Virus record (IMG/VR): IMGVR_UViG_3300036045_000504
Coordinates: 1-37,059 of that record
Source of the DNA: a virus
Reading direction: 5' to 3' (one strand)
DNA length: 37,059 nucleotides
Of the stretch, positions 14,051 through 23,752 are shown in pieces (within the stretch, counting starts at the first letter, position 1; each line of letters starts with the position of its first letter). The translations under genes and the position numbers were made by a program. The notes beneath the pieces are model-generated. The model had not been told where the DNA came from. It worked only from the letters and a program-made list of their open reading frames with translations, and made no database searches.

Positions 14051-14208
14051 AGTCGCGGCGGGTGTGGCGGTGCTACCGCGCGGTGGACTGCCCGGAGTGC
14101 GGGATCGTCTGGCCGGTCGCGCCAGCGCGCTGCCTGGATGACCGCTGGTGGATCGTCTGCCCGTTGTGTGGAGAAGTCCCGTGGCGTGCGGTGCTGCGCC
14201 GAAAGTGA
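14047..14208 (+). CDS. Zinc-ribbon protein, 53 aa
   Basis: GTG at 14047 overlaps the preceding stop. The protein is rich in Trp and Arg and holds two knuckles, CPECG (residues 15-19) and CPLCG (about 40-44), so a single zinc ribbon is expected. It is just upstream of the packaging genes and so could be a HNH-less packaging accessory, but no nuclease residues are seen. Confidence 0.6.
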   Translation: MKSRRVWRCYRAVDCPECGIVWPVAPARCLDDRWWIVCPLCGEVPWRAVLRRK

Positions 14209-14215
14209 GTCAGCC

Positions 14216-15058
14216 GTGATCGATCTGGCGCGTGAACTCATCTACCACACGGCGACCGACGAACGCTGCGAGCAATCGGCGAACGAGCGTGCGCTTGTTG
14301 CGCGCATCCAGGCGCTCGGCGTGCCAGCGGTGCCGCAGGTCAAGTTTGGCGACAACTGGGTCGCCGACGCCCTGATCAACGGCACGACGCTCATCCTCGA
14401 GTACCACGGCGCGTACTGGCACACGCGGCCCGAGGTGCGCGACCGCGACGAGCGCAAGCTCGCCTGGGCGCGGGCCAACGGCTACCGCGTCGTGACGGTC
14501 TGGGAGGATGCCTACCTGCGCGACCCGGAGGCCGAGGTGCTGCGCGTGCTCGGCGAGTACGAGACCTACCAGGCCGTCGCTGCGGCGGTCACGGCCACCT
14601 ACGTGCGGCTGGCGGCGGCACAGGAGGCGGCTGATAAACATGGAAAACATGCAGGGGATCGGCCGCGCCGCAGTGACTATGGCGACTGGCGCGACGCCTT
14701 CCTGGACGCACTGAGCGGGGATGGCATCCTGCTCGACGGCTGCGAGGCCGCCGGCGTCACGTACGAAACCGTCCGGCGGCACCGGCGCGAGGACCCGGCC
14801 TTCAACGTGGCGGTCAAAGACGCCCGCAAGGCCGCCGCCGATCGCCTCCGGCGCACCTACCAGGGCCGGGCCAAACTCCAGAGCGACCGGGCGATGGAGT
14901 TTCTGCTCAAGGCGCTTGACCCCGAGGAGTACTCGGACGCGATGGCGACGGTGCTCCAGGCGCTGCTGCAGTACGTGGACATGGCGAAGCTGAGCAATGA
15001 GCAGATCGACCGGCTCGCCGCCGGCGACGACCCGATCCGCGTCCTCCTCAACGGCTAG
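14216..15058 (+). CDS. Small terminase fused to a Vsr/DUF559-like nuclease domain
   Basis: 280 aa. Residues 1-120 read like a Vsr/DUF559-type PD-(D/E)xK endonuclease: Asp51 in VADALINGTTLILEYHG, Glu62, His64, YWH, then RDERKLAWARANGYRVVTVWED. Residues about 150-230 are a terminase small subunit: WRDAFLDALSGDGILLDG, the HTH turn AAGVTYETVRRHRREDP and AFNVAVKDA. The linker is Ala/Lys-rich and the tail is helical. It sits directly before the large terminase and overlaps it by 62 bases. GTG 14216 is the best start but has a weak RBS (GTGAG). Small terminases are normally without nuclease; an attached nuclease could help cut at pac/cos or mark a captured homing-type domain. Confidence 0.75.
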   Translation: MIDLARELIYHTATDERCEQSANERALVARIQALGVPAVPQVKFGDNWVADALINGTTLILEYHGAYWHTRPEVRDRDERKLAWARANGYRVVTVWEDAYLRDPEAEVLRVLGEYETYQAVAAAVTATYVRLAAAQEAADKHGKHAGDRPRRSDYGDWRDAFLDALSGDGILLDGCEAAGVTYETVRRHRREDPAFNVAVKDARKAAADRLRRTYQGRAKLQSDRAMEFLLKALDPEEYSDAMATVLQALLQYVDMAKLSNEQIDRLAAGDDPIRVLLNG

Positions 15059-19563: not shown

Positions 19564-20664
19564 ATGAACTTCAACCTGGCTGATGCGATCCGCGCGCTGG
19601 GCGCGATGGCCGCCTTTCTGGTCGCCAACAACGCCCGCCCGCCCGCGAGCTACCTGTTTGCCACGCTGCTGCCGGAGGTGCCCCGCCCCGACTACCAGGC
19701 CAAGAGCGGTACCATGACGGTGCGGGCGCTGATGGCCGGACTGGTCGGGCAAGACAGTCCATACCCGGAGACCGGGTTTATCGAGGTCTCGACGTTCGAC
19801 GAGGCCACCGCCAAGATCGCCAATCGCTCGCGCATTCCCGAGGCGGCCCTGCGCCAGCTCCAGCAACTGCTGATGCAGATGTCGTTTGCCGGCCAGCCCA
19901 CCAACGAGTTCGTCCAGCAAGAGGCGCTCAACTTCCTCGCCAAAGTCATCATCCAGCCACACCTGGACACGATGGAGTGGCTGCGCGGCCAAGCGCTCGC
20001 CACGAGCGCGATCGACTGGACGTTTAACGGCAAACGCCTGCTGGTCGATTACGGCGTCCCCACCGCCAACAAGCTGACCAGCCGCACCGGCAACGACGCC
20101 TACGGTGGCAGTGCTTCGAAGTTCTGGGTGGACGTGCGCGCGATTCGTCGCCTGCTGCGCGGCAATGTCCGGGCGCTGCTCGTCCACCCCGACACGCTCG
20201 ACGTGATCCGCTACAACGCGGCCAACAGCTTGACGGCGGTGGCGGAGGGCACCGGGTCGGTCACGTTCCGGCGGGTGAACGCCCAGGGCCAGTTCACCCA
20301 GGACACCGGCGACACCATCACGCTGATTAGCTACGGGCTAGAGGGCGAGATCTACGACCTCGCCAACCCCGGCCAGACCAAGAAGATCCCGTTTCTGCCG
20401 ACGGGCAAGCTGCTCGGCGTGGGCAACAACGCCGGCACGTCCTACATCGTTGGCGCAGGATCGACCGCGCCGCCCGAGCTGGCGCTCGGCTACACCCACA
20501 TCGGCCCGAGTGTCGAGGGTGGCGGGCGACCGGGGCGCTGGGCCGAGCTGTACACGCCCCAGAACGAGCCGTGGACATTCGAAGGCCGCGGCGTGACCAA
20601 CGGCCTGCCGGTGCTCGAAGCCCCGGACAAGGTGGTCATTGCCACGACCGAGATGCCGTCCTAG
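19564..20664 (+). CDS. Major capsid protein, lambda gpE-like
   Basis: 366 aa. Begins NFNLADAIRALGAMAAFLV and contains the features of the gpE branch of HK97-fold capsids: ASYLFATLLPEVP, FDEATAKIANRSRIPEAALRQLQQ (E-loop/spine region), VIIQPHLDTMEWLRGQALATSAIDWTFNG and the C-terminal QNEPWTFEGRGVTNGLPVLEAPDKVV. No N-terminal delta domain is seen, which agrees with a separate scaffold. RBS CGAGGAG precedes ATG 19564. A stem-loop follows the stop. Confidence 0.88.
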   Translation: MNFNLADAIRALGAMAAFLVANNARPPASYLFATLLPEVPRPDYQAKSGTMTVRALMAGLVGQDSPYPETGFIEVSTFDEATAKIANRSRIPEAALRQLQQLLMQMSFAGQPTNEFVQQEALNFLAKVIIQPHLDTMEWLRGQALATSAIDWTFNGKRLLVDYGVPTANKLTSRTGNDAYGGSASKFWVDVRAIRRLLRGNVRALLVHPDTLDVIRYNAANSLTAVAEGTGSVTFRRVNAQGQFTQDTGDTITLISYGLEGEIYDLANPGQTKKIPFLPTGKLLGVGNNAGTSYIVGAGSTAPPELALGYTHIGPSVEGGGRPGRWAELYTPQNEPWTFEGRGVTNGLPVLEAPDKVVIATTEMPS

Positions 20665-20721: not shown

Positions 20722-21279
20722 ATGCCCGCACCGGTAGAGCTGCGCGACCCGCTCGGCGAGTTGGTCGGCACGCGCGCCAACATGCTCGCCGTCGGCAGCC
20801 GCCTGATCACCGCCGAGGCCGAGTTCAGCCGGCCCGCCGATACCAACGCGTATGCGGCGCGCGATGTTGTTTCGAACAACGCGACGGCGAGTACGCTTAT
20901 GGCCTTGCCCGTCGCACGGATCGCAGGCGGCGACGGGTATCTGGTGCGGGCGCGGTTGGTGACGAACCGCGCGACCGACACGGCGCGCTTTCGGTTGTGG
21001 CTGTATCGCATTGCCAACCCGACCGTGCCGGCCGACAATGCCGCCATGACGCTGCTGTGGGCCAATCGCACCAGCCGGATCGGCTGGCTGGATTTTGCTG
21101 CGCTTGCGAGCGAGCAGACGGGGAGTGACAGTGCAGCGGCCTTGATTGCCGATGCACGCCTGGCCTTTGCGTGCGCCGAGGGCGAGACCCGGCTGTGGGG
21201 CCTCTTGCAGGCCCTCGACGCCTTCACCCCCGCCTCCGGGCAGCAGTTCTTCGTGCAGCTTGTGGCTGAGGTCAACTAG
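20722..21279 (+). CDS. Virion structural protein, 185 aa
   Basis: Resembles phage structural proteins I recall as being placed after capsid genes: an FSRPADTNAYAARDVVSNN stretch, GGDGYLVRARLVTNRATDTARFRLWLY, LLWANRTSRIGWLDFAALA and GQQFFVQLVAEVN. Beta-rich, no catalytic motif. Likely a capsid-surface or head-fibre base component. CTGGAGG at 20711-20717 precedes ATG 20722. Directly abuts the LamG-like gene. Confidence 0.65.
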   Translation: MPAPVELRDPLGELVGTRANMLAVGSRLITAEAEFSRPADTNAYAARDVVSNNATASTLMALPVARIAGGDGYLVRARLVTNRATDTARFRLWLYRIANPTVPADNAAMTLLWANRTSRIGWLDFAALASEQTGSDSAAALIADARLAFACAEGETRLWGLLQALDAFTPASGQQFFVQLVAEVN

Positions 21280-22749
21280 ATGCCGTCGCCCGCCCGCCGC
21301 CGCCTCATCCTCGCGCCGCGCCGCAGCGGCCCAGCCCTTCCCGACTACCGCCTGTCGGGGGTCGCTGAGCCGTTTGCGTGGCTCCCGCGCACCGGCACCC
21401 GCTGGCAGGACGCCGCCGGTACGGGGGCGCTGGCGGGCGCGTCGGGCGAGCGGTGTGGGCGCTGGCGCGACAGTTACCGCAGCGCGCCGGTTGCCGCCAC
21501 CTCCGAAAGTGGCCCGGATCGGCGCGGGACGCTTGCGCCGTTTGGCAGCGTGCTGGGCGTGCAGTTCGACGGGGTGAATCAATGCCTGGTCGAGCTTGGC
21601 GGCGCGGCGGGGGCGGCGTTCAGTGGCAACGACACGCCGGTGACGGTCGTGATGGCGCTCAAGCTGGCTAGCACCGGCCACAACGGGCTGCTGTGGTGTG
21701 CGGCCAACGCGAGCGGCAATCAGATCTTCGCGCTGCGCGAGTCGGGCGGGAACTGGGCGGCCAATCGACGCGGCGACTCGGGGTTTGATCCGACCGTCAG
21801 CAACGGCGTGACCGATGCGGTGGGGCCGCGGATCGTCACGGTGATCTTCGGCGGAACCCAAGCCACGATCCGGGTGGACGGCACCACGATAGTGGCCGCA
21901 GCAAGCCTCGACACCGTGGCGGCCACCCTGAACAACTTCGCGCTCGGCGGCGGCTACCTGGCATCAAACGGCACGCCAAGCGGCCCGTCCCCGATCACGG
22001 TCGGTGCCTGCCTTGTCTATCCCGGCGTCGCGCTGACGGCGACGCAGGCGGCGACGGTCGAGGCGAGCTTGCGGAGCGAGTGCGGGATATCGCTCGCGAG
22101 CGATGCGGCGTTGCTGGCGGCGCTGGGCAATGCGACGTATGCGTGGTATGGCGGCAGCCTCTCGGCAAACGGCGGGGCGATCGCGAGTTGGACGGCGACG
22201 GTGGGCGGCGTTGCGCTGGCGCAGTCAAGTGCGCCGAATCGACCGAGCGTCGGCGTTTTGAATGGACGGCGCGCCGTCCAGAACACGCGCGCGAATGAGC
22301 AACATGTCAGCGCATCGCTGACCATTGCCGCCCCATTTGAGATCGTCGTTGCGGGCTGTTATACAGCCGCTCCAAATTCCAACCGGCCAGCGCTCGTCGG
22401 CGCTACAAATCCGCTCATGTATCTCCGCGTCAGTGGCGGAAATACAGCACTGGAGGCATATCTCGCGCCGACGTATTTATCCGCCAGTACCGGTATTCCC
22501 ACCACGCCCGCCGTCACGCGGCTGCGTGTGACGGGTACGACGGCCAGCCAAATCATCCTCAACGGGACGACTGTCGGCACGGGCACGCTGGCCGGGACGC
22601 TCAACGATCTCTCAATCGGTGCCCGCACCAACGGCGGCGATGCGTCTGACAGCAGCATCGCCGCCGTTGCAGTTACGACCGGCGCGAGTTACCAGAGCCA
22701 GGCCGCTGCCATTGCGGCAGCGATGCAAAGCTACTACCAAACGCCATGA
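21280..22749 (+). CDS. Tandem LamG/concanavalin-like virion protein
   Basis: 489 aa. Two repeats of a jelly-roll lectin fold: first about 90-270 (VLGVQFDGVNQCLVELGG, TPVTVVMALKLAS, IRVDGTTIVAAASLD, VGACLVYPGVALTATQAATVEA), second about 275-489 (NRPSVGVLNGRRAVQNTRANE, FEIVVAGCYTAA, QIILNGTTVGTGTLAG, SIAAVAVTTGASYQSQAAAI). Each has the strand order of LamG-like domains. The N-terminus is basic (SPARRRLILAPRRSG). Starts right after the preceding TAG and overlaps the metzincin gene. Such domains decorate capsids or bind glycans. The stretch around 22320-22560 is visibly more AT-rich than its surroundings. Confidence 0.72.
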   Translation: MPSPARRRLILAPRRSGPALPDYRLSGVAEPFAWLPRTGTRWQDAAGTGALAGASGERCGRWRDSYRSAPVAATSESGPDRRGTLAPFGSVLGVQFDGVNQCLVELGGAAGAAFSGNDTPVTVVMALKLASTGHNGLLWCAANASGNQIFALRESGGNWAANRRGDSGFDPTVSNGVTDAVGPRIVTVIFGGTQATIRVDGTTIVAAASLDTVAATLNNFALGGGYLASNGTPSGPSPITVGACLVYPGVALTATQAATVEASLRSECGISLASDAALLAALGNATYAWYGGSLSANGGAIASWTATVGGVALAQSSAPNRPSVGVLNGRRAVQNTRANEQHVSASLTIAAPFEIVVAGCYTAAPNSNRPALVGATNPLMYLRVSGGNTALEAYLAPTYLSASTGIPTTPAVTRLRVTGTTASQIILNGTTVGTGTLAGTLNDLSIGARTNGGDASDSSIAAVAVTTGASYQSQAAAIAAAMQSYYQTP

Positions 22750-23390
22750 CCAACCGCCTCTTCCTCGCCTGGCCGCTCCTGGCGGGCGCGACGATGCGCC
22801 ACGAGGCCGCGCTGCCGCTCGTGCTCGGCGAGCGCCGCACCAACGTCCGGCTCGTGTGGGTCGTGCCGGACGGGGAAGCGCCGACGCCGGAGCGGTACGA
22901 GACGCTGCGGCACGAAGTCTCTAGCGCGCTGCGCTACTGGAACCAGCACGCTACCTGCTCGCCCAACCTGCGGCTTGTGCGTGAGGAAACGGTGCGGACG
23001 ACGCTCCCGGTGCGCTACCCGATCATCGTCGCGCAGAGCCAACCCGGCTACCTGACCATCGTGCTCGTCGTCAACGACCGCTCCGGGCAGGATGTCGATT
23101 TGGACGATCCGGCAGGGTGGCATGCCGGCTGGAACTGGCCGCACGCGCCAGTCGATGCGCGCGTCGTCTACACCACCAGCCGCGCGCACCTGCTCGCGCC
23201 GTGCCACAGCGGGCTGCGGTGTGGAGCGTCGCCGGATGCAATCCTGGCGCACGAGTTAGGGCATGCGTTTGGCCTGGAAGACGACCTGCTGCGGCGGGGT
23301 GGCATCATGGACTATCCGCGTCCGGCCTGGGAGTCGTGGCAGATGCTTCCCGATGAGGCGGCGGCACCATGCCGCTGGGAGGGGCGATGA
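22746..23390 (+). CDS. Metzincin-like zinc metalloprotease in the virion module
   Basis: 214 aa. The zinc motif is HELGHAFGLED (His169, His173, Asp179; HExxHxxGxxD) with catalytic Glu170 and a Met-turn M188 in GGIMDYP, the full metzincin signature (matrixin-like branch). Upstream are VRYPIIVAQSQPGYLTIVLVVND and CHSGLRCGASPDAI. The N-terminus (NRLFLAWPLLAGATM) is mildly hydrophobic but no clear signal peptide. ATGA overlap with the LamG-like gene and with the connector gene places it inside the head operon. It could process a virion protein or act on the cell surface at entry. The protease family is well supported, its substrate unknown. Confidence 0.8.
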   Translation: MTNRLFLAWPLLAGATMRHEAALPLVLGERRTNVRLVWVVPDGEAPTPERYETLRHEVSSALRYWNQHATCSPNLRLVREETVRTTLPVRYPIIVAQSQPGYLTIVLVVNDRSGQDVDLDDPAGWHAGWNWPHAPVDARVVYTTSRAHLLAPCHSGLRCGASPDAILAHELGHAFGLEDDLLRRGGIMDYPRPAWESWQMLPDEAAAPCRWEGR

Positions 23391-23752
23391 GCCAGACCTA
23401 CAACGAGCTGCTGCCCACCGCGCGCGATCGGGCGCGCCACGCGCTCGGCCTGACCAACGTCACGTCAGCGGCGGCGGCCATCTACTCCGACGAGCACATC
23501 GATGCGGTGCTTGCGCGGGCGGGCAGCGAGGCGGCGGGGATTGCGGTGCTGGCCGACGCGCTCGTGCAGAAATACGCGCAGAAGCCCGATAGCGTGCGCC
23601 TCACCAGCGGCCTGACGGTGAGCTGGAAGGAGCGGATCGACGCCTGGCGCGAGCTGGCGCAGCGGATGCGGGCGCGGACTGCTGCGGAAGCGGCGGCGGC
23701 CCAGAGCGCCGGGCCGGGGAGTATGAGCGTGCGGAATGAGGTGGTCTGGTGA
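23387..23752 (+). CDS. Head-tail adaptor (connector) protein
   Basis: 121 aa, nearly all helical (NELLPTARDRARHALGL, YSDEHIDAVLARAGSEAAGIAVLADALVQKYAQ, SWKERIDAWRELAQRMRART), matching the helical adaptor rings (gp6/gp15-like) under portals. ATGA overlap with the metzincin, GTGA with the next gene. Assigned from fold-like pattern and gene order. Confidence 0.7.
   Translation: MSQTYNELLPTARDRARHALGLTNVTSAAAAIYSDEHIDAVLARAGSEAAGIAVLADALVQKYAQKPDSVRLTSGLTVSWKERIDAWRELAQRMRARTAAEAAAAQSAGPGSMSVRNEVVW

Follow-up and report, generated by a model that had tools for sequence, protein, structure and literature searches.

A three-gene cassette encoding a jelly-roll protein, a lectin-like protein and a predicted metzincin in the head operon of a siphophage

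Known carbohydrate-binding decoration proteins of phages include T4 Hoc, T5 pb10, SPP1 gp12 and phi29 gp8.5 (PMC7602432). These proteins are accessory, dispensable and head-linked and serve adhesion by binding glycans, a character that we predict for the three-gene cassette described here; their folds, however, are Ig-like, collagen-like or coiled coil, whereas the cassette combines a jelly roll (gene 1), a lectin-like protein (gene 2) and a metzincin (gene 3). To our knowledge, none of these four decoration proteins comes with a protease. A jelly-roll-like beta fold in a capsid context, as proposed for gene 1, is found in the cement protein of the Helicobacter phage KHP40 (7dou) and in the cyanophage Pam1 (7eel). 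Gene 1 has no sequence similarity to either protein and matches them structurally at a Z of about 7 only. We know of no lectin or protease linked to these cement proteins.

A metzincin of phage origin has been described in Listeria, where Mtz and the TIMP-like Tim form a secreted pair (PMC8235301). Mtz acts at the cell surface, as is predicted for gene 3, but the Mtz/Tim genes lie next to CI/Cro-like regulators, outside any virion operon, and the metzincin is paired with an inhibitor-like lipoprotein. Finally, in the ExsF/F-Anchor complex of Bacillus spores, a beta-sandwich protein takes up an N-terminal peptide that belongs to a surface anchor (PDB 9h3d, PMC11952670), and this complex served us as a working model of, and a precedent for, docking between gene 1 and N-terminal tags, although ExsF is a spore protein and its likeness to gene 1 is one of structure. 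Capsid decoration with adhesins is already known, and the metzincin is the new element; our search of the open-access literature turned up no metzincin described from the head operon of a phage.

The cassette and its borders

The analysed stretch (the window) is a whole IMG/VR record of 37,059 bases, and its gene content points to a temperate siphophage. Genes for a DnaB-like helicase, Erf, a DNA methyltransferase, an integrase and an amidase endolysin are followed, in this order, by those for terminase, portal (assigned by position and by homology to relatives, as it has no PHROG match), scaffold, capsid, connectors and tail. At 14138-15058, the terminase small subunit is fused behind an MTES_1575/DUF559-like nuclease domain. 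A search of genome contigs with TerL gave no match; at locus L004, a large terminase 66% identical to that of the window is directly followed by a different capsid module, which marks a sharp mosaic border behind TerL.

The cassette occupies the space between the capsid and connector genes (Table 1), and the coordinates and reading frames of all three genes check out. A gap of 57 bases separates the capsid gene from gene 1, genes 1 and 2 abut (21279/21280), and genes 2 and 3 overlap by a four-base ATGA (22746-22749). The open frame of the connector begins at 23369, and a Met codon at 23387 would overlap the metzincin stop by four bases. The original prediction, made from the sequence of the window, had described just such a run of three abutting or four-base overlapping genes between capsid and connector and had seen no ordinary prohead protease; both observations hold, as no prohead protease family was matched in the window. 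The G+C content of the cassette equals that of the neighbouring genes, and all three cassette genes look coding, judged by the third-position G+C of gene 2 (0.79) and gene 3 (0.85) and by the hundreds of homologs of gene 1.

Table 1 Coordinates of the cassette, its sequence features and its bordering genes in the window
Feature	Position	Strand	Basis
Major capsid protein, upstream insertion border	19564..20664	+	phrog_29, E 7.7e-16; 12 loci with relatives at 44-66%
Gene 1, jelly roll, probable capsid-associated hub (decoration-like)	20722..21279	+	381-stretch family; head-gene neighbours; fold model
Gene 2, probably two ConA/LamG-like repeats, basic N-terminal tag MPSPARRRLILAPRR	21280..22749	+	Position equals that of the true LamG protein of L105
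Basic/hydrophobic N-terminal tag of gene 2, proposed docking peptide	21280..21324	+	Tag enrichment
Gene 3, predicted metzincin-type zinc protease, catalytic residues intact	22746..23390	+	Motif and distant homology
Hydrophobic N-terminus of gene 3 TNRLFLAWPLLAGAT, short signal peptide or docking tag	22749..22793	+	Hydropathy 1.87 versus 2.88 in the L105 homolog
Zinc motif HELGHAFGLED and Met-turn GGIMD	23250..23312	+	Sequence motif
Head-tail connector/adaptor gene, downstream border	23369..23752	+	phrog_1732; start possibly 23387

Searching with an alignment of the window capsid protein and one relative, we found 12 loci encoding homologous capsid proteins, about seven of which were independent and long enough to judge. 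The cassette was absent from all of these approximately seven loci. In four of the relatives (L073, L076, L080 and L081) a connector-type gene follows 12-86 bases after the capsid gene, and in L081 this gene is a detectable homolog of the window gene at 23369; in three others (L079, L082 and L084) one small gene lies between the capsid gene and the connector-type gene. Nor did we find a metzincin elsewhere in the whole L073, L076 and L082 records (52, 57 and 60 kb). Because the same capsid family occurs repeatedly without it, the three-gene cassette is, on comparison of gene orders, an insertion between the capsid and connector genes of this phage.

The metzincin and lectin-like genes and their recurrence

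The gene 3 protein carries the residues of the metzincin zinc motif, H169-E170-x-x-H173-x-x-G176-x-x-D179 (HELGHAFGLED, residues 169-179), and the Met-turn, with Met188 in GGIMDY nine residues past Asp179. The motif together with the Met appeared in 12 of 200,000 shuffles of the gene 3 protein and in none of the other window frames of at least 60 aa, and on these grounds we rejected a chance occurrence. Gene 3 came closest to domains within large proteins of Poribacteria, with which its residues 47-190 align at 26-29% (best E 4e-7). A profile that included these proteins matched PDB entries for ADAM17, MMPs, fragilysin, snapalysin and archaemetzincin, with the zinc motifs in register. All Pfam metallopeptidase matches of gene 3 were sub-threshold, and no PHROG or Pfam head protease family was matched. 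An AlphaFold2 model built from 8 sequences was of low confidence (pLDDT 45.6), with a plausible order of strands and helices and no PDB match at E<=0.001; the model was too poor to use, and its Foldseek matches were discarded as meaningless. Its motif and its distant relatives mark gene 3 as a metzincin, and the full HExxHxxGxxD motif with Met-turn that had been read from the sequence is now joined by distant cellular metzincin relatives.

The rarity of metzincins in phage head modules, likewise anticipated, was supported by the absence of gene 3 homologs from 50,697 phage records; 72,556 plasmids yielded none either. Close relatives were lacking in GenBank phages, plasmids and IMG/VR, except for one unrelated motif match, and a two-sequence metzincin profile scan, for which poor patterns had been chosen, returned no match. 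A motif scan retrieved eight contigs, four with the motif only in frames devoid of other metzincin features, one being L105 (see below) and three holding other, secreted or membrane-anchored metzincins. The latter are small proteins of phage contigs (L183:1952-3097, L184:1324-1797 and L185:1333-2031) and contain segments that look like signal peptides or membrane spans.

Gene 2 had no Pfam match at E<=10 and no match in the PDB, and a profile comparison with LamG was negative. A weak internal repeat (35% over approximately 80 aa, E 0.002) was detected, and the first half of the protein weakly matched phrog_4390, a family of unknown function (E 0.0019). The double LamG architecture that had been proposed for this protein is thus plausible, given the repeat and the LamG protein found at the same position in L105, but a profile match is absent. 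Gene 2 probably encodes a sugar-binding protein with two ConA/LamG-like repeats.

The original prediction had suggested looking for the lectin-metzincin pair in other phages, and the whole trio recurs in the same order in L105, a 27.9-kb IMG/VR contig from a distantly related phage whose scaffold and adaptor are 37% and 32% identical to those of the window (the adaptor being compared with the connector gene at 23369) and whose capsid gene has no detectable similarity to the window capsid. There, a gene 1 homolog (45%) is followed by a LamG protein (PF13385, E 8e-21) and a metzincin-like protein, with the same four-base overlap, and the trio stands behind the adaptor gene rather than the capsid gene. 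The metzincin-like protein (L105:6205-6855), a phage pseudo-metzincin, reads AHTLGHFYGASD...GDIMDY; its catalytic Glu is replaced by Thr (HTLGH for HELGH), and both His, the Asp and the Met of the Met-turn are kept. As the Glu to Thr change takes at least two base changes, it is not a simple read error. Similarity between gene 3 and this counterpart was detectable around the motif only (E 5e-4). Judged from the L105 locus, the three genes seem to travel together, and their protease can lose catalysis, which accordingly is not conserved. A metzincin absent from virions and without its zinc motif in relatives had been named in advance as the outcome that would refute the original proposal; the sole relative with the same cassette goes part of the way, lacking the catalytic Glu and retaining the zinc ligands.

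The jelly-roll family and the N-terminal tags downstream of it

Homologs of gene 1 are present in Rhizobium, Caulobacter and Aphanizomenon phages, and an alignment of these matched 381 viral stretches, making gene 1 a member of a large unnamed phage family. Upstream of the homologs, at 61 non-redundant loci, we found matches to ten different major head protein families, in a count in which a single gene can match several families, as well as to portal, scaffold, decoration and head closure families; a P22-type coat and portal also occur near gene 1 homologs. Genes downstream encode Laminin_G_3, GDSL lipases, an arabinofuranosidase-type domain (arabinofuranosidase B), PKD and polysaccharide deacetylase. 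In the Caulobacter phage Lullwater the order is gene 1 homolog, small gene, GDSL lipase; in the Rhizobium phage PPF1 a GDSL lipase follows the gene 1 homolog, and in the Aphanizomenon phage CL131, for which virion proteomics has been published (PMC6293099), an arabinofuranosidase-type domain does. These loci resemble the window in that a gene 1 homolog precedes a surface-acting enzyme or ConA-like domain, and differ from it in having a GDSL esterase or arabinofuranosidase-type domain where the window has a metzincin. Not all gene 1 homologs adjoin head genes, and those that stand elsewhere count against display on the virion. In L093 (RHph_I1_6) and L097 (RHph_Y65), cadherin/Ig-like, beta-helix and GDSL genes come after the gene 1 homolog, at a site apart from recognised capsid genes.

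An AlphaFold2 model of gene 1 (55 sequences, pLDDT 91.1) is a ten-stranded jelly roll, and its best structure matches are jelly rolls. With VIA-align, the KHP40 cement protein (7dou) and the Pam1 capsid chain (7eel) were matched at Z 7.0, tied with unrelated jelly rolls; other matches included plant and animal virus capsid proteins and TNF/C1q-like trimers, all at Z 6-8. On this model no single family is singled out by matches in that range, and matches so unspecific also weigh against virion display. The ExsF spore protein, whose structure was solved with an N-terminal anchor peptide, was among the matches.

Proteins encoded after gene 1 homologs often have similar starts, such as MPSPARRRLILAP in the window, MPTLQQKRLILNG in L105, MPYPQRRRLLLSG in L108 and MSLLQPPRRPLLMP in L121, and the tagged proteins (loci L098-L177) are largely unrelated beyond the N-terminus. 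A [KR]R-x(0-2)-hydrophobic pattern within the first 20 residues was present in 22 of 49 downstream genes and in 64 of 746 other genes (p 2e-10), and after homology clustering in 15 of 33 versus 50 of 502 clusters (p 7e-7); the pattern was picked after inspection of the data, a point against the virion-display reading, and some positives are doubtful. A shared tag on otherwise unrelated proteins suggests that the proteins downstream of gene 1 dock on a common partner. This general gene 1 system, rather than the metzincin itself, may be worth more attention.

A virion-displayed hub and competing explanations

The reading that we favour, at somewhat short of an even chance, is that a jelly-roll hub on the virion displays a swappable lectin together with a metzincin. 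The three genes would be a mobile accessory unit that has entered the late head operon. Its gene 1 jelly roll would serve as the hub, seated on the capsid or on another part of the virion; the lectin-like gene 2 protein would dock on it through its basic N-terminal tag, and the metzincin would be carried along with both. Before or during adsorption, the trio on the particle could attach to glycans of the host surface and cut, or bind, proteins or glycoproteins there. The head-gene neighbours of the gene 1 family, its fold, which resembles cement proteins among other jelly rolls, the lectins and surface-modifying enzymes downstream and the L105 trio support an adhesion or penetration cassette linked to the head module. 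The insertion itself, the enriched N-terminal tags and the existence of carbohydrate-binding decoration proteins likewise speak for virion display. The idea that a glycan-binding arm with a protease helps the virion to cross the host surface survives in this form; we rejected its filamentous or sheathed host, in whose support we found nothing. The loss of the catalytic Glu in L105 counts against virion display of an enzyme, and the more specific proposal, that an active metzincin is held together with a lectin on a tailed-phage capsid by the jelly-roll hub of a widespread tag-mounting system for interchangeable adhesins and enzymes, is doubtful. Were it true, phage heads, and not tails alone, would bear enzymes acting on the host surface; a general jelly-roll and tag mounting would be recognisable from gene order in hundreds of uncultured phages; and an unannotated protein family would gain a testable function and offer a new place to seek phage-borne proteases and lectins.

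The strongest rival is that gene 3 encodes an exported late protease, made together with the head proteins, which would cross the inner membrane by means of a short signal peptide and attack the cell envelope to aid lysis, release or superinfection exclusion, like the secreted Listeria metzincin of phage origin (PMC8235301). It owes this rank to the hydrophobic start of gene 3 in both phages (TNRLFLAWPLLAGA, with an A-G-A site, and a still more hydrophobic N-terminus in L105) and to the phage-contig metzincins with evident signal or membrane segments (L183, L184 and L185). The four Cys of gene 3 would also suit an exported enzyme, and the N-terminus could be a signal peptide, which would speak against virion display. 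We regard export as a serious but nevertheless unlikely alternative, as the hydrophobic stretch at the N-terminus has little length and little charge, gene 3 is the third member of a fixed trio in both phages and shares four bases with the lectin-like gene, and in L105 the protein is devoid of the Glu that such an enzyme needs.

Less likely again is a fibre module attached to the tail or neck, for which the head operon would be an insertion point only. Several Rhizobium and Caulobacter phage homologs of gene 1 do have genes for tail fibres, beta-helix proteins or hydrolases in their vicinity, and the L105 trio follows an adaptor gene; many homologs, however, closely follow major head protein genes, and the gene 1 fold resembles cement proteins, though not specifically. 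Ranked below this, and improbable, is a gene 3 product that serves as a binding domain only, its metzincin fold binding substrate or metal with catalysis incidental or decaying. The L105 copy, with HTLGH and otherwise preserved His, His, Asp and Met, would fit such a role, but the window copy keeps every catalytic residue.

Well-known phages such as P22, in which the capsid protein has a scaffold separate from it, manage without a protease. That gene 3 replaces the usual prohead maturation protease, the other role originally considered for it and one that its place near the capsid gene and the lack of a standard head protease in the window would allow, is very improbable, because relatives sharing the capsid and scaffold families of the window do without a metzincin anywhere in their 52-, 57- and 60-kb records, a separate scaffold would make a protease unnecessary as in P22, and the L105 sequence predicts a catalytically dead protein. 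The window has no gene between portal and scaffold, unlike several relatives, in which MuF-like or other genes occupy that place (L073:5431-6462, L079:1092-2267, L076:4745-5383 and L081:3700-4233).
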